Source: Saccoglossus kowalevskii
Lineage: Eukaryota; Hemichordata; Enteropneusta; Harrimaniidae
Length of the DNA: 35,543 bases
Direction of reading: 5' to 3'
NCBI RefSeq assembly: GCF_000003605.2
Contig: NW_003156751.1
Coordinates: forward strand, 3,742-39,284
Position numbers and translations under genes: made by a program. Below, in pieces: positions 1-35,543 of this stretch. Under the pieces are notes generated by a model. It did not search any database. It worked only from the letters and a program-made list of their open reading frames with translations, and was not told where the DNA came from. How positions within the stretch are numbered: the first letter of the stretch is position 1; each line of letters opens with the position of its first letter.

Positions 1-3060
<3,060 letters not shown>

Positions 3061-5945: not shown

Positions 5946-6599
5946 TTATGTGTTTGTTTGTGTTTCCTCCACTGCTGTAATTTCAGCGTTAGTTACAATT
6001 CTCATTCTGTCTTTGATCCCATGATTTGACGACGCAGAGGGCGCTATAATGTATTGGTCTTGATGTGTAAAACTATTAGAATCACATTCCACTTCTGAAG
6101 TGCTATTTTTCTCATCATGTGTTTCGACTTCATTATTATATTCAACAGAAGTTTCTTTTGGAATTTTCATTTGGTAACATTGGTCGCCTAGAGTCTGACA
6201 ATTGTCATCTACTGGTGACATTTCGTTGCAAAGGTTTGTTGCATTCGTCTGTGGTAGCGGTATGCCAGGCTGGATCGATACTTCGTGTGAGTACGAGTCG
6301 ACATGGGCATGCGTTTCTTCGGCTCGATCAAGTTTAGGAGGAAATATCTTTTTACAGCAACTTAACAAACTACCAAATGTACATGAAATACATCCGAGTA
6401 TGACAAATAATGACCCGAAGCCAATTAGGAATGTGTTGCCGAGCGTGATACAGTAGCTGCCTCCGATAATGCAACACACACCAACAACAGTTAAAACACA
6501 TTTCCATCGGTGCTTCCTCACGCAGTCTCTCACTGATTCAGGGCATACTTGAGGCCCTGAATACGACTGAGCTCCATGGCGACCAACTGTAGAAATCAT
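5946..6599 (-). CDS. Two-TM hairpin protein with acidic Ser/Thr-rich tail, 217 aa
   Basis: Unrecognised single-exon gene. The start is the ATG at 6599 with A at -3 and an in-frame TAA three codons upstream, so the N-terminus is complete if the exon is unspliced. Residues 1-33 end in a basic cluster (RKHRWK). Two hydrophobic helices follow, about 34-54 and 57-80, separated by only a few residues, then Cys-Cys-Lys-Lys at 81-84, a plausible palmitoylation site next to the membrane. Residues 89-217 are hydrophilic, rich in Glu, Ser, Thr and Asn, with no second hydrophobic segment. Basic residues on both sides of the hairpin suggest both termini are cytosolic. Ten Cys lie within residues 19-82. 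A YNNE tetrapeptide in the tail fits a GRB2-type SH2 site (pY-x-N). Topology matches the gene at 33761-34299 and, loosely, barttin-like two-TM subunits, but I claim no homology. The coding assignment is strong; the function is unknown. Confidence 0.75.
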   Translation of the reverse strand: MISTVGRHGAQSYSGPQVCPESVRDCVRKHRWKCVLTVVGVCCIIGGSYCITLGNTFLIGFGSLFVILGCISCTFGSLLSCCKKIFPPKLDRAEETHAHVDSYSHEVSIQPGIPLPQTNATNLCNEMSPVDDNCQTLGDQCYQMKIPKETSVEYNNEVETHDEKNSTSEVECDSNSFTHQDQYIIAPSASSNHGIKDRMRIVTNAEITAVEETQTNT

Positions 6600-8960
6600 C
6601 TTTGTTTACGCATAGCGCATCGTAGCGGAACTAAACAATTACAACCAAATGCTCCATTGGACGGTGTAATGTTTAGAATAACAAATAAAACATGACATAA
6701 AAATGAAACAATTACAAACACACATTTCACGCTATTACGTCCATTTTATATGTGGGTAATTGTCGCTACTTTCAAAGAATGAACGCCGCTTCTAAAATAA
6801 GATATAACATAACACACGTGACCGGAAACTGAGTTATCGACCCTATAGCCTGGCAAATGAGAATGCGTTTTGTGATTCATATACAATAATCAATAGTATA
6901 TATATATTAATATACGACGATAATATATATTGACATATATGTACAATGATTTAAATTGAACACATCTTGTAAGGCCGGTGATAAAACGTCTTACTCGGTT
7001 GATATTTTACCGTACGAGTACTAGATATGATTCGTACCTAAAGGAAAAACCAATAAAGACATGTATTAGTTACCATGGAGATATAATTAATTTGTCGCCT
7101 TTTTGTGACGTCCGTAACTCCCTGTGGACTATTCTCCCGGTTTATTCGTTTCTTTCAGAGTTAACAACATCAATGTTATTTACATGTACGTTACGAGGGG
7201 ATATACCCCTTATGTAACATATAAGCAATATATGACGATGGTGACTTTACGATGTACCAATCTATATATCTATATTAAAGCTCTTCATTGCCAGTAAAGA
7301 TTTATACTTGGCCCATTGATAGTATAGTCTTAGATTACTTCCGTAAATAATAGAAAACCGTGTATTGCTTCCACATATAATATATTTATATTAGGTTTCA
7401 AATTGTCCAAGGAAAGGTCGATTTCAGCATACTTGATGGAGTGACTGTAAACGGATACCTCGGGTAGACGATAGCATTTGATTTGATTAAGTCAGCGAAG
7501 AAAAAAAATGAATGTTAATATATGCAAGACACATTAATGTTGTTGACACGGAAAGCGTTTAGGAATATTATCCTTTATGCAATTGTCATAATCACGTTCA
7601 AACCACAGATTCAATTAAACAATCTGAGATATGATTCGCACGATGTTCAAGTTGTATCAATAGATAACGTTCGTGATAATTTCACATCGCAAGATGGCTC
7701 ACTTCCATCTCAAGACGGGAAACAAGATATAAAGTAAACTGAAAATTTTTGGAGAAACGAAACATTTTACAAGAAATAATGTTTTTCGAATGTACCATTA
7801 ACATCCAACGTCTATATAGGTGATTCTGGAATGTCTTTGGAGGAAGTATTCAATTGAGATTGCCATTACAAATAGTATTACTATAATAGGATGAACAATA
7901 TGCAAGTTTTGGTAGGATAAAACAGTTGGGCAGAGGTTCCGTCTGAAAATAGTGTTCTTGAATATGACGAATCATTGCTATCGTTTGATGTGTTTATATA
8001 TGGGTCAATGCATTTCCAGCAAAGTACATACAACTTACCTCTCATCTATTCCAATAAGTTGTATGTTACTGTACATTTCATTTCAGAACAAACCAATAAA
8101 GTCGTATGCAATGAGCAAAATACTGTTCTATAACAAATCAAAATATTAAAATACACATTAGTTTTGATGATAATTTGACAATTCTGAAGCGAGTTTGGGG
8201 CTTGTTTTAGTTTCGATAAACACGATTTGTGTTGGTTTTCGGTATTCATTTTTGTAAATATTGGTTCACCAACATGTTTGGATCATAATAAATTGTGCCT
8301 TATATGTAAATCATATATGACGTCATCTCAAACTTATTTAGTATTATTTTATTAGATTCAGTATTACACTTTTGGTTCACCTGTTAAGCCAGATTTTGAT
8401 AAAAATAGATTTATATGTTGTGACAACAATTCTAAACAAACCATCACAAATACAGTTATACAGTCAAATGGAAATTGACAACATTGATGACCAGATCGTT
8501 AGCAACCAGATCAAAACATTATTGTCGTAATTGTCTTTTGCTCTACTGTCATCGAATATATGACACAGTGAATCTGAATTCATGTAGGAATATATACATA
8601 CTTGGATGTTTATAATGATATACTGGTTCATTTTAAAAACTATTTCAATATATATTTATAGTTTTTAGAAAGAATTATGCTTGCTTGTACAATTTATGTG
8701 GTTCTCAGCATGACCATTCAATCACAAGTGAATTTCAAAAATATGACGATTTAAATTTTCTTTTGCTATGTATTACATGCGTTATTCAAAAAATCTTCAC
8801 TTTGAAAAGAAGCAATTTACTTTTACACACATTCATAAACATTTTAATTTACTCCACGATATTTTTTATCGATTTTTCTTCGAAATCGTTAAAGTACATG
8901 TTTAATAGCGTGTACGTTTAAGTCATTCAGCTTTTATTATACTATATTCAATAACATTGA
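6600..8960. other. Intergenic, no supported gene
   Basis: The first 100-200 bases probably hold the promoter of the minus-strand gene ending at 6599. There is a CACGTG E-box at about 6816-6821 and AT-rich palindromic sequence at 6895-6950. A full palindromic CRE (TGACGTCA) is at 8318-8325. Short open frames (6978-7217, 7522-7737, 8685-8921, plus) have no recognisable domains or convincing splice sites. Confidence 0.5.
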
Positions 8961-18843: not shown

Positions 18844-18910
18844 TTGTGTCCACAGGTATAAGAAGTGAACCTTGGCCAGATTGTAGTTATGTGTCTTCAT
18901 GTGTTCTTCT

Positions 18911-18978
18911 ATTCTATTCTATTCTATTCTATTCTATTCTATTCTATTCTATTCTATTCTATTCTATTCTATTCTATT
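18911..18978. repeat. (ATTCT)n pentanucleotide microsatellite, 13 units
   Basis: Thirteen perfect ATTCT units plus a partial one, preceded by one imperfect unit. The same motif is the one expanded in human SCA10, where it forms an easily unwound DNA element. Here it is only a short simple repeat. Confidence 0.95.
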
Positions 18979-23093: not shown

Positions 23094-23447
23094 NNNNNNN
23101 NNNNNNNNNNNNNNNNNNNNNNNNNNNNNNNNNNNNNNNNNNNNNNNNNNNNNNNNNNNNNNNNNNNNNNNNNNNNNNNNNNNNNNNNNNNNNNNNNNNN
23201 NNNNNNNNNNNNNNNNNNNNNNNNNNNNNNNNNNNNNNNNNNNNNNNNNNNNNNNNNNNNNNNNNNNNNNNNNNNNNNNNNNNNNNNNNNNNNNNNNNNN
23301 NNNNNNNNNNNNNNNNNNNNNNNNNNNNNNNNNNNNNNNNNNNNNNNNNNNNNNNNNNNNNNNNNNNNNNNNNNNNNNNNNNNNNNNNNNNNNNNNNNNN
23401 NNNNNNNNNNNNNNNNNNNNNNNNNNNNNNNNNNNNNNNNNNNNNNN
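23094..23447. other. Assembly gap (354 N)
   Basis: A run of 354 Ns. All open frames crossing it are meaningless. The flanking duplication suggests the true gap size may be zero and the order is an overlap, although a real tandem duplication with missing sequence is possible. Confidence 0.99.
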
Positions 23448-25134: not shown

Positions 25135-26187
25135 CTTGAATGACGCCTAAAACAAAATAAGAGACAAGTTGTGAAACGCGTTTATCAGATTCCTACAAAT
25201 CAGGACAAAAATACCAATCTTTCGAAAAAATACGGTCCGTTGGGGGATATTCCAAACAAATATGAGAAAATTACATGAAACCATTTGAACATGTAAGATT
25301 AAAATCAGATCATATGAAAATGTTTGCTTACAAATCTTTTGTTTAATCCGTATGAAACGTGTGCAGTGCGTTTTGGTCATTCTGTGCACGTTTTGAACGT
25401 CTGTTATCAGTTAGCTCAAGAGGTAAATAAACAGAATAATAAACAATCAATGTCAATAGAATGGACAGTACTTGGATAAAGCATATACATGATACAACAG
25501 TCCTTCTAGAGGGACTGTGATGATGCCAACAGAATATATGCTACGTTGTTGTACTTAAAGGGCGGTGGTCGTCGCTCCACGCATGCGCGAGATATGGTTC
25601 TCATACTATGAACAAAGATTGCAACATTACCAAGTTTAATTTGATATTTTTTGGTGATTGGAAGGTATCGAAGTAGTCACTTGTGGTAATTAGTCTACGT
25701 CGTCGTTAAGTTGTAAGCAGAAATGTTCATATAATTTAGAAACAGATGCCATCGCCAGTGAAAGTTCCATATGCAAATCACTTTTACATCTCTTAGGTTA
25801 AGCATCCAGCCATAACTCGCCTCACATGTTGAAACTTATAATTTTCATTTTAATCATGTTTCGAGTTTTTTTAATATGCAATTGGTATGCTGGAGTCTTT
25901 TACAGGCATTCTGAGAATCATTCGGACTGTCAGTTAGTAAAAAGAAATCCTTGTTGTTTCTCTATAGTTTTGATCGTATTTTGTCCTAAAATCCTCCCAA
26001 TTTGTGAAAGTTAATAAAATTGGAATCATTGTGTGTGAGATGATTCACCGAAAATGTGACACGACCATGTACACACTCTTAAATGATTGGACTCCTAAAT
26101 TGTAACGAAATGTATGGTAATTAAAACAAAATTAGCATGTGACGATGGTAAAATAAATGCACCACAGCTGCTTCTACAAACACGTTG
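25135..26187. other. Intergenic, one unconvincing short ORF
   Basis: An NRF1-like CGCATGCGC is at 25580-25588. The plus-strand open frame 25826-26014 (62 aa) starts with a hydrophobic stretch like a signal peptide and contains several Cys, but it has a second hydrophobic part and no recognisable family. I regard it as possible but unproven. Confidence 0.35.
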
Positions 26188-26193
26188 TTTTAT
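26188..26193 (-). terminator. Candidate polyadenylation signal AATAAA
   Basis: TTTATT on the plus strand, i.e. AATAAA on the minus, lies about 350 bp past the stop codon of exon C (26541). It would give a normal-sized 3' UTR. Assigned by position only. Confidence 0.35.
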
Positions 26194-26540
26194 TCCCCGT
26201 CATATCGACTCAACTGAACATCACCTCAATCAGGTCTACTATACAATAGTTCTAAACAAGTACAGATTGTTCACTGGTAGAAGATATATAGTTATGAATT
26301 CTTGCTACCCCAACTTAAAAACAAACATAATATATTCGATATACTGAAACAAATCATAACACACTCGTGATGATGTATTTTTGCACGTATTTTGAAAGTT
26401 AAAAAGTTTAATAACATTATGGCATTTCCAAGAGCAAGTATAATGTCCAGAAATTCACTCCAAATAACTTATCCTTGTAAAACTATGAAAATGTGAGCGT
26501 ATACTTCGCGGGAAAAAACAAACCAACATTACTTGTTACG

Positions 26541-27207
26541 TCATACATAAATCACGTCGTCCTCCGAAGGAGGGAATATCACATTTGATGATATAGAGTG
26601 TCCACCTAGTGAGGTCATTGTCAAATAGTTTTCACGATTTTGTTCTTGTTCTGAGACTTGTTCGAATTCTCGTCTCTTCACCGTCAATCCGACAGACGGA
26701 CGTTTTAGACTCTCTTTGTGTTTTACAATCCTTTGTTTAAATATTTTCATTTCATTCGGTAGATTCGACCAGGTGTGGTCCTCCCCTAAAAGTATTTCGG
26801 TGGAAGATGAGACGTCATTGATATTCTCACTACTTTTAATTATTTCTTTATCGTGTGTTATTGTATTCGAATCGATACACTCGCCATTTCGATGGGAATT
26901 AGATGTATTCGATATGTCGTACCCGTCACAGTGGGTCAACTGTGAAAAATATTTCCTTTGTAATTTATCAGGCAAATCATGTTCCACAACAGATATTGTT
27001 CTGGGTATCGTATTCTCGTGTACAAAATGATGAGCAGTCATTTGAGAACTTCTGTCTCGGTGGACCCAGTGTTCTGTTTGTTTCACATCCAGCTTTTGAA
27101 ATTCGTCGAACATTTTACGGACGTTGTTGATTAAGATCCAATCAACCCCCGTATTCACAGTGCCATCAGGGGGCGATTTTGAGTCTGATCTTCGATGAAC
27201 ACATGAT
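26541..27207 (-). CDS. Exon C: terminal coding exon with W-x-x-I-N-N-V motif
   Basis: Unrecognised. A strong 3' splice site (branch-like TTAAC, T-run, TCCACCAG) ends at 27208. The exon begins with one base completing a codon (phase 2) and stays open for 222 codons to the TGA at 26541. The upstream part has no ATG before residue-level motif WILINNV, so an upstream exon is required. The motif's Trp lies 24 residues from the exon start, against 25 for the first motif of exon B at 32032-32338, and weaker copies (WVHRDRS, FVHENTI) follow. The rest is hydrophilic and acidic/basic mixed, with no TM helix. The tail has NYLTMTS, a YxxM motif of the PI3K-p85 SH2 type, and ends in VIYV, which fits a class II PDZ ligand. 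Read with the exon at 28404 it gives 227 aa; it could instead be an alternative last exon of the 34299 gene. Confidence 0.6.
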
Positions 27208-28403
27208 CTGGTGGATGAAAAAAATCGTTAATTGTTACAAAAGTTAGAAAATCTTCAAATGCTGATGGTGTATACTATAACATCTACATTGCTTCAAAAC
27301 TGATTCTAAAACTGACAACAATATACTACAAGAATCTCAAGTTACCTTTTAATTAGTGCAACATTGGCATGAAATATACATGACATTATGTGAAATACAT
27401 GACATCATTGGTACTTGATTGAGAAAACACTCGGGGCAAAATCTCAGTAAATAAACAACACAACAGAATGTATACATACATTTGAACCTTGCAATGATTT
27501 AACCTGAACTGAATAAAAATAAGTTTTGTTCTGCAATTCAAATATAATTCCTGTGTATGTATAATGAAAATTACGCAGACTCACGTTGAATTACCTTTTT
27601 TTTTAAATTAAGTCAGACACATGGGTACAAAGTAGCATATTCTGATAGACATTATACATATTATTGTTGAAAAGTCATAGGCTTTATCAATACATTTGAA
27701 ATAGGTGTAATAACTGCATCATCATTTCTAAGTTGGTTAATAACATGTCAAATAGACCACATGTAATCCAGGTTCGTACTATGTAAACAGCAATAGGCTT
27801 GCCAGAGAAGTCAATATTACACATGTGACCTCTGACACAGTAACACAGTATAGACTACATAAATGTTCTACGAAGTAATAAAACCGAAACTGGGTATGGA
27901 CATGTCTACGCATCCACAGCCAATGTGAAGACTGTCCCCGATTGGCTACCAAATTCAAACACCTAACAGTTACACCAATCAGAGAGCTTGTTTGTTGAAA
28001 GTTTTTTTTTGACGTATCAAATTCTGCATTGTATATATGCTTAGACTAAATTTTGTATCAACTTTTGTCATACACAATTTTTCAGGTACAGTAACATTTA
28101 CGGAATTAAAAGTTCTCTCCTCCCAATTGTAAGTTCAGAAAGAATTGACATGTGATAGAAAATTTGAACACGTACAATTGAAAAAAATAAATATACATTA
28201 TATTTACTTTTTAAAGTAACTGTTAAAATCATGTAAAATGTACCACGTATCGAATTTATTTAAGCCATAAATCCACTCAATACTATTCGTTCTGTAATTC
28301 AGTTGTCGACAACTAGTTTATTTATAGCTTGTTTTTCTTTTTACCAATGAGTCATTCACACACACACGCTGGCTATCTTATATATCACTGTGGTAAAGTT
28401 TAC
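27208..28403 (-). other. Intron between the 28404 exon and exon C (proposed)
   Basis: Bounded by GTAAAC at the donor side (28403 downward) and TCCACCAG at the acceptor side. AT-rich, with no open frame or repeat of note. An exon inside it cannot be excluded. Confidence 0.4.
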
Positions 28404-28543
28404 CTGCAGGCATTGCCCATCCTCTGCAAGCAGCGTAATCAACAGGTGATAAAACTAACAATTGGTGTTCAGTAGTAATGGAATTCAACAAAAGAACTGG
28501 ATGGCAAGCTTGCGTTTAAGAACTAGATAAGAACTTTTCCAGC
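28404..28543 (-). CDS. Candidate 5' exon with MGNAC start (coding 28404-28420)
   Basis: On the minus strand an acceptor-like TTTTTATTGCAG ends at 28544 and a good donor CAG/GTAAAC starts at 28403, delimiting 140 bases. All three frames are closed in the first part, so most would be 5' UTR. Near its end is AGGATGGGC (28420), a strong Kozak start (A at -3, G at +4), followed by 17 coding bases, leaving phase 2, exactly what exon C needs. The joined N-terminus reads MGNACRSC. Gly2 followed by Asn, Ala and Cys is typical of proteins that are N-myristoylated and then palmitoylated on nearby Cys, which would tether the product to the membrane as the TM hairpin does in its neighbours. The exon is short, so chance agreement is possible. 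Confidence 0.4.
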
Positions 28544-28990
28544 CTGCAATAAAAACAATATGCCATTTATTCTAAGTCTTAAAACACATGTAATACGATT
28601 TCACGAAACGTCCCAAGTACACACATCGTATAATTGAATGTTATTTTTAGTTTTTAATTCATAAAGTAATGTTATTTTGACCTAAATTCGGATATATTCA
28701 GAATCGGCGGCATCATCCTTGCCTAAATCATGTGCTTGCGTATGTTTACACCGCGGATGTCAAGTTAATATTAACGAAGTACACGTTGTTTGCACTGGTT
28801 CAGCAACACCGGACGCTCTACGGATAAACCTACCTTTTTGTCCAACTCTCAGCGGAAATAGACAATATTCTTTAAAATTATCGGCGACGGGTTACAGAAC
28901 TGAAATATAATGCGAAATTCAAATTCTTCGAGGAGGAAATGTAACAGATACAACACCATACGTCCCGTGACGAGAATGAACTAGTTTGCA

Positions 28991-29010
28991 TCACGTGACA
29001 CATGACGTCA
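28991..29010. promoter_or_regulatory. Adjacent E-box and CRE palindromes
   Basis: TCACGTGA (28991-28998) is followed after four bases by TGACGTCA (29003-29010). It lies about 450 bp upstream of the proposed minus-strand 5' exon and is a plausible promoter or enhancer element for it. Known binders of these motifs are bHLH-ZIP (USF/MITF/TFE) and CREB/ATF factors. Confidence 0.4.
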
Positions 29011-30744
29011 TGGTGGAATACGAGTAGATCAATAAAGAAGTGTTTACGAGTCATGCTTGTCATAGTTTTGTTGTCATGCACTCTGCGATGTCCTATGTCG
29101 CACCATCACTTTATTTGGGGTTAAAGACTTTGGATCTTTAATCGCATGATTTCTTAATTGCCATTTATATCTGTGTAAGGTATAACCTTTTGTTAGATCA
29201 TGTGATGAGATGGTATTGCACAACGCGACACGGTGACTGTTGGTGTGTCATCTTTGGAGATAAGGTCACACACCGGCGAGACTGAGACGACTCGATGATA
29301 GTTGTCAGGTAACCCGGTTTAACGAGATAATCAATGAATCACACACGGCCTATCGGATAGCAGTGATCGTGTTGGTGTGCAGAATAAACTGGAAATGACG
29401 TCATATTTTCCACACTGGTATACCAGCTCACCAGTTGTTTACAATGTTTCCCAGACCAAATAATGCAATATGAATTGTTTTATATAACAGGCAACAACTT
29501 AGATATTAGCCAACAAACAAACAATCAAAATTAAGAGAGTAATAAAAACAATTTTACTGTATAACGGAAACAGATGAATCCTGTTTAAATTTTAAAAACT
29601 AAAAATGTCAATAATATTATGTGTCGTTCCAAGAAAAATGAAAAAATAGTATGCAAGTGCAATGATTGTTGTATGCACATTAGAACGTTCTAGTGTTTTA
29701 TTAACCAAAAACTTAGTTGTGTGAAAAACATTTTAGTACACATATCATAATTAAATGCATTCGCCAACATATCAATATCAACACTATCAATACTATGTAT
29801 CCTTCCATATTGCATCGTTATAAATATGTAGCTCACTTTACTTGCAAATATAACCATTACATGTCGTATAATAATTAGAAAATGATAGTAAGTAACCATA
29901 GTTCTTTGTAATTATATAATATAATCAAATTATTAATATATCTATCAAACTGATTAATATAATCCAACTATTCAGTCAACGTACCATTTTCAATGATAGA
30001 TATGTTTTAATAGTAGTGAATAAAATAACGTTGTATTTGCTAAAATTAATTTTAAGATGTCATCTAGCACACCAGAGTTAACTGAAACTATTATGAAGGG
30101 TACTGCATGCGAGTGTGAGTAGATACGTTAACACACTAGTATATCTCACCGCACTAAGAAGTCTCGACCATTATGATCTAACTCGATATATGTATGTACA
30201 TTTTTCATTAGAGACAGCAAGTTGATATCATCTACGATTCTACCATCTTAATATAAAGTGTCATATAGTGTCATTTAATGGCGAGAAGGTATATAAGGAG
30301 TTATTATCGTCTTAGTTGAGGGCGCCACTCATATGCACAAATCTGGTCATTTCCTTTTTTTGTACAAGCATAACATTTACAAAGATTGAGAAATTGACAA
30401 CATTTAAGGGTCACCGTACATAAATTAGAAACAGATATGATGGAGAGGAGAAAGCATGTGCATCTATACTAGTATGTTGATACCATGTTGTAACTTTTAA
30501 AGTATGTCGTTCAATATTTCACAATTTTGGTCTTACTAAAATCGTAAATGTATATAGAAGCAAAGAACAAAGTATGATGCACACAATGGATCGAATGGCA
30601 AAGACGATGATGCATAATTTACCACTCTAAATCATGTGACATTGGCCAAGCTGGGTTCGAACCATTACTTTCGTATTGTTAGTCAGTATATGAAAGGGTA
30701 TCCTATGAGGTGCAAATGCAATGTTTGGATGAATACATTCGTCA

Positions 30745-30762
30745 TCACGTGATATGCACGTG
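30745..30762. promoter_or_regulatory. Tandem CACGTG E-boxes, 5-bp spacer
   Basis: Two perfect CACGTG hexamers (30746-30751, 30757-30762) are separated by five bases. Paired E-boxes with a short spacer are used by CLOCK/BMAL-type and MiT/TFE bHLH factors, usually with 6-7 bp. Function here is untested. Confidence 0.35.
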
Positions 30763-31820
30763 ACATTGTCGTGGTATAACTGAAGTCGTTAATCGCACCC
30801 ATTGGTCGTTCCCTTTCGATGCGATGAAACATCATTCGGCCGTAGGCCACGTTACAAGGCGCTTGCACCATGGCTACTTGTGTGATTAACTAAGTGATTA
30901 ATTCAGTTTACTAATATTAAAGTAATTAGTTATGAAATTATTTTAATACCAACGAATCAGATTGCATTACATGATTGTAAAATGTTGGATAAATCACACA
31001 GTCATATAATATACTACACATTTCCCCCTAAATTACATTATTTCAGATTGTAGGTGATTTATTTTTCATTAAATCGGTGAATTTAACGGTTCATGGCGAA
31101 TTACAACAATATCTTGACATGCGCAGTAGATGGCTTCTCAGATGTTGAAATTAAGATAAACAGTGCATGTCGTTTTTAATTCCTTGACAAATATAAAAAA
31201 TGTATTAAACCACCCTTCTCTCAAACATAATATCTTCATATCCTCTTATAACTCATAAATTATAACAATTATTATTTTCTAAGAGCAATGTAACTTCTCA
31301 GTATAATGATGAGATTCCGGGAATACATATATAAGCCATATAAAAGTTGAACATGTAAACATCATACAATTTAAATCAGTTGAAATATTAAAATATTCAT
31401 TCGTATAAAATATTCATAGATGTTATGGTCAAAAATTAATAGGTGTTTCTATGGTAACATTTGTTATCTAGTGCTTCACTAAAACAGAGCAAGGTCGACG
31501 GATAAAACGATTTTATAGCAATATATTTAGTATAATTACATCATTGTTACGTCAGAGCTATGCAAATATAAGGCACTCATGAATTAATCGTACAAACCAT
31601 TTAGTTTCCATATACATTTTAAGAAATAGCTTAGTGTAATTTTCAAATTCAATCTCATTTCGAAAACGGTGGTGAATCGCGTTCAAGGTGTTTGTTGTGT
31701 TTTGTTTTCCGGGTAGTATAAATAAGTCAATATCGGAACTAATGAACAATTGAAGTTGAAGCGGAAAGCAGCAATTACACCACTATGTATTGTAATATCA
31801 CGTTGCATTTCCCTTATTCT

Positions 31821-31826
31821 TTTAAT
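31821..31826 (-). terminator. Candidate polyadenylation signal ATTAAA
   Basis: TTTAAT on plus, i.e. ATTAAA on minus, sits about 206 bp past the stop codon of exon B. It is the commonest variant signal in animals. No canonical AATAAA is closer. Positional evidence only. Confidence 0.3.
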
Positions 31827-32031
31827 GAGTGTCAATTGTGAAAGCAAACGCGAACACGAAACAATCAACACCAGACCAACGTTATATATCGTCAAGCTTA
31901 CGTGCGGTCATGCGTAAAAAGTGTCGTTGTCGGTGGCAATGTTTCTAAGGCATACTGTCGACGCAAACACACAAGCTGGCAGTAAATATCAATAATAATA
32001 TAGATAGTCTCTCTTCAAACTCTAATCCACA

Positions 32032-32338
32032 TTATGCTATCGATTTCGATCTGCCCGGCTTCTCGTCGCGCTGTTCCCTGCCTTCCGCGACAACCGTTGC
32101 TGCTCTCTTGACCTCGGTATGCTTCTTGTAAGAAACATTGTTAATATGTGTCCATGTTCCCATGTTTTGTTTGGGCATATTGGCGACGTTGTTTTCGTAT
32201 ACCCAAGAAGCCCGTGGATTATATCCTCCTGTGTCTCTTAGTCGTTTCACGTTATCGATATGTGTCCACTGTTGGTTCTGCATTAAAACGTAGCCTGCAG
32301 CATTGAACTTGCGTCGACCGCTGCTCACAGGAACGTAC
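32032..32338 (-). CDS. Exon B: terminal exon with three W-x-x-[IE]-[DN]-N-V repeats
   Basis: Last coding exon of the two-TM gene starting at 34299. The acceptor TTTTGTTCTAG ends at 32339; the first base completes the Gly codon split by the intron, so exon A (phase 2) and exon B fit without frameshift. It supplies residues 180-281. Three heptads are visible: WTHIDNV (204-210), WVYENNV (225-231) and WTHINNV (242-248), spaced 21 and 17 residues, with basic and polar linkers. After them comes a charged tail rich in Lys, Arg and Glu ending KSIA. Exon C at 26541-27207 has a similar motif at the same offset, which points to an exon or gene duplication. I do not know the fold; a tandem short motif with invariant Trp and Asn-Val suggests a linear binding motif repeated for avidity. 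Confidence 0.72.
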
Positions 32339-33283
32339 CTAGAACAAAATATTGACAGTCAGAGAGAACATTTTCGAAAACGACATTATAATAATCTAAA
32401 AATATATTGCAAGATATATCTGATCTCAAAACAAAAACAATGCGATTTACAAATCTCGTTCATTCGTGTACACTGGTAGTTCGTGTGAGCGATATATAAT
32501 TGCGATAATAATATTGAAATATGATAACCATACGTCATGTTCTATTCACAAGGTTCGATGAAATGTTCACTGTAATTTTATATATTTTAAAAAAACGGTT
32601 AATATGTAAATTATAAATACTCACATGACCAGGTACGAAGGGGTTTGTCATTTGAAATTGGAACGGGGGAGGTATCACAAATATTGAAAATATACGAAAA
32701 AATAATAATCACGTTTTTTCTCATTCTATTACATTATGCCATTATCGTAATTATACCATTATCGTATGTTATATCTTCACGCATTGCGCTGTTCCCCGCA
32801 AATCATCCTGTCTCTCGTTTTGATTTGGGTATTCCCTACGCATACTACCGGGTAATAATGTGATTACACATCTGCTAAAGGTCAAATGTACACTGTCCTC
32901 AGTACGAGGCACGGCCTCACATCTCCTTTATACGTGTTAAACATTGAAAGAAATAACATACACGTTTTATAAATGTTTTATCTGAACAAAACTTGTTTAG
33001 GTATATCTGAGTAGATTTTCCAAATGCCTAGAATGAATTAAGCAATTTTCTTGAATTAATCAAGCAATGCAACGGTGACAGTTAAAGGTGAAGTTAAGCT
33101 TTCAGCACGTAAACACGGCCGATGAGTGTATTAAAAACCTTTTATCGCATCTTAATATTTGGATGGTGAGAGAGAGAGAGGTGAGAAACCACTTTATATC
33201 GTTTATACCGCGTGTTAATGATACCAGCACACTTTATGTTCGACATCCTGATAATAACAAACTTTATGAAAGCAAGTAAAAAG

Positions 33284-33389
33284 TAGTTCAGTGTAGTGTA
33301 GTGCAGTGCAGTGTAGTGTAGTGTAGTGTAGTATAGTGTAGTACAGTGCAGTACAGTGCAGTGTAGTGTAGTGTAGTGTAGTGTAGTGC
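33284..33389. repeat. (GTGTA/GTGCA)n pentanucleotide array, part 1
   Basis: About 21 units of GTGTA with occasional GTGCA, GTACA or GTATA variants. It encodes only low-complexity Thr-Leu-His-Tyr-type peptide on the minus strand. It is intronic to the exon A/B gene. Confidence 0.95.
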
Positions 33390-33417
33390 GGATCGGAGGG
33401 TACTCTGTTTTGTTGTC

Positions 33418-33480
33418 TACTGTAATGCAATATAGTGTAGTGCAGTACGTTGTAGTGTAGTGCATCACAGCGCAGCGCGG
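33418..33480. repeat. Pentanucleotide array, part 2 (degenerate)
   Basis: The same GTGTA/GTGCA family resumes after a 28-base unique interruption, more degenerate and ending in a CpG-rich CAGCGCAGCGCGG. It was probably once continuous with part 1. Confidence 0.8.
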
Positions 33481-33760
33481 CCCCGGAGTAGTTTGATCCA
33501 GTGCATAGTGTAGTAATTCGAATTCGTAGTTCGTCTTTTACCTGAGTTTTATTGTAATGGTTATAAATCATCCAAATATCATTCACAGTGAGAAATCGAT
33601 ATACAAATTATTCAGCGCACATATCATTGTAAATCTTATATAAGATTAGCGATGTGAAATGGGACAGGCACGAAGCTGTATAGTTTATCTAACGTAAATT
33701 CCAGTTCAACTAATGAAAAGTTGATCATAGTGACGAAGAAAGCGATATTCCATTACTCAC

Positions 33761-34299
33761 CCGACTTCCGAACCTTTGTAACCAGTGTTGTGTTTTACTT
33801 TGTTACATTCATTACTGAAAGATATTCCTGTTTTATCTTTCGGTGGCTCCACAACAGATTCATATTCGGGAATTGAATCGTAAACTTCGATGTAATTCAA
33901 TCCAGTCTCAGTTTCTGAAAATGTCACAGCCTCTGAGTCCCTATCACACACATCCTCTTTCAGCGGTGTCATGGCAACCCATGGATCACTACCTCTTCTA
34001 GGATGGATAGCATCGGCATCGATTTTTAACATCTTTATTTGCCTTTCTTGACTCTTTTGTCTCGTTACTCTCCTCAATTCGGTAACTGATTCTGCCCTTT
34101 CGAAAGAACGTTTCAAAACCCAAACAGAAAAAATAAAGCAAATCACTGAAGCACACCCAACGACGAAGAGGATATATCCGATACCTCTTACAATAGGATG
34201 TTTCCATGGTATCTCAAGAAATGCCATCCATATTCCAACTGGGAGTGTGCAGATTGCCACAGCTAACGTTATGATAACTATTATCACCTTGGAATCCAT
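33761..34299 (-). CDS. Exon A: first coding exon, two-TM hairpin protein (281 aa with exon B)
   Basis: Unrecognised gene. The start is the ATG at 34299 (G at -3, G at +4), the first ATG after an in-frame TGA seven codons upstream; a GTG three codons earlier is not used in eukaryotic nuclear genes. TM helix 1 is about residues 5-28, TM helix 2 about 39-62, joined by a ten-residue loop (EIPWKHPIVR). The basic KR at 63-64 suggests the long tail is cytosolic. The tail (63-281) has a basic, helix-forming part, then an acidic part with clustered tyrosine motifs YIEV, YDSI and YESV within 14 residues, resembling pY-x-x-hydrophobic SH2 ligands. The exon ends GTCGG/GTGAGT, a strong donor, phase 2, fitting exon B and also exon C. 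Topology matches the 5946-6599 gene. A signalling scaffold or channel-associated subunit is a guess. Confidence 0.78.
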
Positions 34300-34940
34300 A
34301 TCCGTCACTAATGCTATTCAAGACATTATACGAACTTTGCTGAAGATTGGAAACATAACAGCAAAGGAAAAACAATAATCTATGAACATAAACAAAATTT
34401 GTGATTATTCAAGAATACATTAAAAGAAAACCTGTTTGAACAAGTTATTCGGTGAGCACCAATAATACATTGCTACTCAATATTGACAGAGAGATTCATC
34501 CATGGAAGGTCGTCGTATAGTCGTGTCATTTGGGGTCACGTGATCTATGCTAGATTGCATTGAAGTAGTATACTATGTTGTATCAATCTACACCAAATTG
34601 ACATTCATTTTAAAACAAATTTACAACTCACCAAAATGAGGTTAATTATAGTGATATATTGTATAATTTGAAACCATTGGTATATAATTAAGTCTACATC
34701 ATTGACCGAACGCACACAATCAAAACAAACGTATGCTATTTTTGTATTAACCCTCACCTTGCCAACTCCATGTACTTTTACATTGACTTGACCAGATACG
34801 GGTTAACCAAACCGTCAGATAGTCGTGAAATGTGTAATAGGCATAAGCGGATAAATCTAAACTATTAAAACCTTACCTTTGTTGACTTGCATGTAAATAT
34901 CAGCCATGTGATAGGTAAGCCCGTTTGTTTGAGCGCATCT
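34300..34940 (-). promoter_or_regulatory. 5' region of the exon A gene, with possible 5' UTR intron
   Basis: Upstream of the ATG there is a good acceptor (TTTCCAATCTTCAG, ending about 34340) and, about 530 bp further, a strong donor AAAG/GTAAGG (34877/34876). An intron here would be in the 5' UTR: the short ATG-initiated frame of the upstream exon (MADIYMQVNK) meets a stop soon after joining. A TCACGTGA E-box lies near 34537. The transcription start is not visible. Confidence 0.3.
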
Positions 34941-35064: not shown

Positions 35065-35543
35065 GGAGTAAATTAGTTGAATCACTGTAACTACTTTTTG
35101 ACTACCATCGTTAGGATCAATGTGACTGTTTCATGATTGAATAATTACGGCTGACTGTGATCAATATTGGTGGGATCAATGTGAATGTTTATTCATTGAA
35201 ATATTATGGGTGACTAAATTAACATTGGCTGAATCGACGTAACTGCTTGTTGATTAAATCATTCTGTATAGGAGACTAAGATTAATATTGGTCAAATCAT
35301 TGTGACTGCTTGTCGACTGGATTATTATGGGCGACTGATATTAATATTGGCCAAATCAATGCGGCTGCTTGTTGATTGAATTATTATGGGCGACTGATAT
35401 TAATATTGGTCAAATCAATTTGGCTGCTTGTTGATTGAATTATTATGGGCAACTGATATTAATATTGGTCAAATCAATGTGACTGCTTGTCGATTGAATT
35501 ATTATGGGCGACTGATATTAATATTGGCCAAATTAATGTGACA
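35065..35543. repeat. 59-bp minisatellite, about 8 copies, running off the window end
   Basis: The unit contains CTGATATTAATATTGG followed by CAAATCAATG, then GACTGCTTGT, GATTGAATTATTATGGGC. The phase word TTAATATTGG recurs at 35282, 35341, 35400, 35459 and 35518, exactly 59 bp apart. Earlier copies (from about 35071) are more diverged, with 58- and 63-bp spacings. Sequence homogeneity increases toward the window end, so the array probably continues beyond it. The period is not a multiple of three, and no frame stays open. Confidence 0.93.

Follow-up and report, generated by a model that had tools for sequence, protein, structure and literature searches.

Candidate genes on the minus strand

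The stretch of DNA analysed here, a window of 35,543 nucleotides, carries three probable coding exons on its minus strand (A, B and C) and a candidate fourth exon, D, which together may make up two neighbouring genes, A-B and D-C (Table 1). By their gene structure both would be of the animal type.

Table 1. Coordinates of exons, candidate transcript features and other elements in the window
Feature	Position	Strand	Remarks
Exon A	33761..34299	-	ATG start at 34299; donor after 33761, phase 2
Exon B	32032..32338	-	terminal coding exon; three heptads WTHIDNV, WVYENNV, WTHINNV
Exon C	26541..27207	-	terminal coding exon; WILINNV as its one clear heptad, later copies weak; YLTM; C-terminal VIYV
Exon D (candidate)	28404..28543	-	5' UTR and start codon 28420 (MGNAC); phase-2 donor after 28404
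Candidate non-coding first exon of D-C, last base	28834	-	AAG/GTAGGT; donor rank 7 of 2117
Candidate poly(A) signal behind B	31821..31826	-	ATTAAA; pattern match only
Candidate poly(A) signal behind C	26189..26194	-	AATAAA; pattern match only
ORF T	5946-6605	-	single-exon-like; 217 residues from ATG 6599
Tandem repeat	35116-35542		about 7 copies of 59 bases, at the end of the window
Run of N	23094-23447		probably an assembly gap; limits inferred from self-comparison
Perfect TC repeat	1921-2116		196 bases
Perfect TTCTA repeat	18907-18978		72 bases

A preliminary description of this DNA had stated that exons B and C both begin in phase 2 and that exon A ends in that phase and could be joined to either of them, and both statements were borne out. 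Exon A is followed by a GT donor and leaves two bases over, and exons B and C are preceded by an AG at 32338 and 27207, where one base resumes phase 2 and the frame runs free of stops to its end. The predicted A-B protein has 281 residues and a joined A-C protein would have 401 (stop not counted).

The stop-to-stop lengths of A, B and C are 186, 108 and 228 codons, and at the stop frequency of the window about 0.04, 4.8 and 0.003 frames of such length are expected, so that the length of exon B alone is no evidence of coding. Codon usage, trained for each exon on the other three presumed exons among A, B, C and T (a small training set), favoured the proposed frame over the other five in all four cases. 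Random windows scored as high in 9 of 1946 cases for A, 24 of 1964 for B and 8 of 1936 for C; the score partly measures the absence of stops, and the random windows were not required to be stop-free. This result supports the coding status of exons A, B and C. ORF T also appears to be coding by the same measure (10 of 1936 random windows); it has two hydrophobic segments and a net acidic make-up.

For the splice sites, all 2117 GT and 1603 AG sites on the minus strand of the window were ranked with matrices that are approximations from general knowledge. The donor of exon A ranks second, the acceptor of exon C fourth and that of exon B 47th. A 5' UTR exon of gene A-B may lie further upstream; its end would be at 34877 or else at 34758 (the donors score 11.7 and 11.8) and its junction near 34339, where the acceptor ranks 71st. 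Upstream of exon C, the acceptor at 28543 is the best on the strand (an alternative at 28423 ranks 69th) and the phase-2 donor at 28404 ranks 28th, so that three of the four splice sites of the candidate gene D-C are among the top seven of their kind. The start codon at 28420 has an A at -3 and a G at +4 (context GAGGATGGG), with an in-frame stop upstream at 28441, and the predicted D-C protein, beginning MGNACRSC, has 227 residues and no TM segment. Rank alone proves no exon, since strong donors at 29432 and 30150 have no place in the model and the former outscores 28834. As for the poly(A) candidates, the stretch from 25.5 to 35.5 kb has 24 AATAAA or ATTAAA hexamers, and the stop codon of C is closer to an ATTAAA at 26412 than to the AATAAA at 26194.

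Elsewhere in the window, the run of N is flanked by a direct repeat of 97% identity, 68 bases long in front and 66 behind, which may be an artefact of gap placement. Rfam gave nothing in the window at its gathering thresholds.

A tryptophan heptad in the terminal exons

Both terminal exons contain the heptad W-x-x-I-[DN]-N-V. Its first Trp had been placed at residue 25 of exon B and residue 24 of exon C, which is correct when the split codon is counted; in full codons these are 24 and 23. A scan of all six frames of the window finds the strict pattern at three sites, two of them in B and the third in C; 60 first-order Markov simulations gave 0.017 sites on average. This average overstates the case because the pattern was written after these copies had been seen. 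A looser pattern that takes in WVYENNV of exon B finds four sites (simulated mean 0.23), and a still looser one finds six, four of them in B and C, against 3.4.

We then scored the 17,230 ten-residue windows of all 351 stop-free stretches of at least 40 residues with a matrix built from the three copies in B, which themselves come out on top by construction (40.7, 38.3 and 34.3). The best site outside B is DWILINNVRK in exon C, at 24.7, and the next, HWVHRDRSSQ, also in C, reaches 17.7. The preliminary description had seen further Trp- or Phe-anchored copies after the first heptad in both exons. This holds for B, where, with the first copy as the query, the score of the second-best site was reached by 2 of 5000 Trp-fixed shuffles. 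In C, by contrast, the weaker sites (HWVHRDR at 17.7, TWSNLPN and HFVHENT at 14.3 each) lie at or near the noise, other stop-free stretches scoring 17.0, 16.3, 16.0 and downward; the best scores in exon A and in T are 8.7 and 12.3.

Shuffling exon C with its Trp residues fixed reached the best score in 15, the second in 8 and the sum of the top four in none of 5000 trials, and full shuffling gave 11, 6 and none. Because no shuffle reached the top-four sum, some enrichment of heptad-like sites in C is possible. With the Trp column removed from the matrix, the best, second and third scores were reached 684, 65 and 15 times in 5000. Taken with the scan, these shuffles show that a single heptad of C is conspicuous, in part because of its Trp, and that the other copies there are weak. 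A literature search for the strings WTHIDNV, WTHINNV, WILINNV and MGNACRSC returned no match.

Similarity between the exons and to known families

The local alignment of the whole exons B and C scored 36, which is not significant since 259 of 2000 shuffles did as well, and an alignment of their first 39 residues anchored at the exon start was likewise not significant (807 of 5000). At the DNA level, a same-strand comparison of 32001-34940 with 26001-28900 gave no trace of a duplication: up to an E-value of 10 there were eight short matches, the best of 25 bases at 84% identity (E 0.025). A control in which the start of B was aligned with 7136 segments without stops from across the window was uninformative, the best eight matches all being B itself. 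The other exon pairs were matched by 1707 (A and C), 1411 (A and B) and 744 (B and T) of 2000 shuffles. We rejected a relationship between T (6599-5946) and exon A, since 489 of 2000 shuffles were equally good. For C and T the figure was 77 of 2000, one among six comparisons, and we claim no link from their short common stretch (ECIDSNTITH-DKEII and EC-DSNSFTHQDQYII).

None of six query proteins (A-B, D-C, T and three further ORFs) had a Pfam-A match above the curated cut-off, the best for A-B being DUF4224 (E 0.023, 15.1 bits against a cut-off of 22). NCBIfam, a library made for prokaryotes, gave none for A, B, C and T above its curated cut-offs; A had three sub-threshold matches, the best at E 0.29. 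In the PDB sequence search up to E 1, D-C had no match and A had one (E 0.82), and the nine found for B, antibody heavy chains with a best E of 0.022, were judged to be chance matches. Among viral contigs, pattern searches for relatives of B and C gave five and three matches, and those for A-B among genome contigs gave 15; tblastn confirmed none of them, which says little on an animal gene because these collections contain viral and prokaryotic DNA.

Predicted features of the two proteins

Exon A encodes two hydrophobic segments, with 19-residue windows above 1.6 on the Kyte-Doolittle scale (a cut-off taken from general knowledge) starting at residues 1-14 and 35-46, and thus has the architecture of a two-TM hairpin; exons B and C have no hydrophobic stretch above this value. 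A basic stretch follows the hydrophobic segments, and the positive-inside rule suggests that both ends of the hairpin are cytoplasmic. The tail of exon A contains YIEV, YDSI and YESV within 14 residues, and exon B contains YVPV and YVLM. The N-terminus of D-C carries Cys5 and Cys8, and MGNACRSC fails the N-myristoylation pattern PROSITE PS00008 (quoted from general knowledge) because GNACRS has an Arg at the fifth pattern position (residue 6); a lipid anchor of D-C is therefore a guess. A single-sequence structure model of B was poor, with a mean pLDDT of 42.1 and with 83 of 101 residues below 50 and none at or above 70, which is compatible with disorder or with the missing alignment.

Discussion

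Our analysis points to two adjacent, separately transcribed minus-strand genes, A-B and D-C, whose tail exons would be old duplicates and whose N-terminal anchors would differ, a reading to which we give half a chance of being right. It is favoured by what lies upstream of exon C: a candidate 5' UTR donor, the acceptor at 28543, the ATG at 28420 with a stop in frame before it, and, at 28404, a donor in phase 2. We take the tail exons to be probable old duplicates because in both W-x-x-I-[DN]-N-V comes soon after an intron, and the two introns agree in phase. The case for duplication consists of one clear motif, a similar distance to the intron and a common phase, and we put the common descent of the two tails at about even odds. 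The preliminary description had offered, as one of two readings, a tandem pair in which the second copy acquired a new 5' exon. The candidate exon sites before C fit this proposal; no DNA trace of a duplication and no significant similarity of the whole exons was found.

A competing explanation, which we think rather unlikely, is that A-B and D-C are unrelated lineage-specific neighbours and that C has its heptad by chance, the likeness having been noticed only afterwards. B and C show no significant similarity, whether the exons are compared in full or only their first 39 residues, the other copies in C are near noise, and an agreement in phase alone would arise by chance about one time in three. 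Against this, the heptad of C is well separated from all other sites outside B, and its distance from the intron is within one residue of that of the first copy in B. The argument from distance is weakened by the best local alignment, which sets the heptad of C against the second copy in B (WVYENNV) and not the first.

The other reading of the preliminary description, alternative last exons after A, would make the locus a single gene in which one hairpin receives two tails by joining A to B or to C, with D spurious or an alternative first exon. The phase of A allows both joins in open frame, its donor and the acceptor of C are among the four best of their kind on the strand, and the sites of D are not required. 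This reading does not explain the acceptor at 28543, the context of the ATG at 28420 and the stop in frame before it, or the donor at 28404, and we regard it as improbable; two genes fit better. A mixed form, in which D and A are both first exons, is also conceivable.

Under the two-gene reading, the simplest account seems to be an old duplication after which one copy gained a new first coding exon, which is a modest result. The most likely mechanism would be that the two proteins serve as cytoplasmic adaptors tethered to the membrane. In A-B, the N-terminal two-TM hairpin, ahead of the predicted cytoplasmic tail, would hold the protein at the membrane, while D-C might be held there by S-acylation of Cys5 and Cys8. 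The Trp heptads could then be short linear docking motifs for a partner common to both proteins, and the tyrosine motifs YIEV, YDSI and YESV of A and YLTM of C may provide extra docking or sorting signals. Y-x-x-hydrophobic patterns of this kind are frequent by chance.

Barttin and other small two-TM proteins have cytoplasmic tails, and exon A resembles barttin in that a long tail follows its predicted two-TM hairpin at the N-terminus. In contrast to barttin, A-B has no Pfam match above cut-off, and the barttin model itself gave no match to A-B up to E 1. LAT, PAG and FRS2 are transmembrane or lipid-anchored signalling adaptors, and the proteins described here would share with them a membrane anchor, predicted in our case, and a tail that has tyrosine motifs but lacks any recognised catalytic domain. 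They differ in that no sequence relation to these adaptors was found. As regards phosphotyrosine-dependent docking, only Y-x-x-hydrophobic patterns were seen. A further likeness is offered by the GTPase Rheb, for which one account describes a conserved protein whose membrane attachment varies by lineage or paralogue, including N-terminal lipidation and TM segments (PMC5869587), so that one kind of protein is kept at membranes by different means. Whereas Rheb is a conserved GTPase, A-B and D-C share a short motif only, and their anchoring is predicted.

The broadest interpretation, which we hold to be unlikely, is an undescribed animal gene family around the tandem Trp heptad. Here the first coding exon would have been exchanged at a phase-2 intron, so that between adjacent paralogues a short lipidated N-terminus replaced a two-TM hairpin while the docking tail was kept. 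If B and C are unrelated, the locus would hold two ordinary orphan genes. If the reading as two duplicated genes is true, it would provide a compact case of a change of membrane anchor at the level of single exons between neighbouring paralogues, as well as a defined short motif for binding tests.
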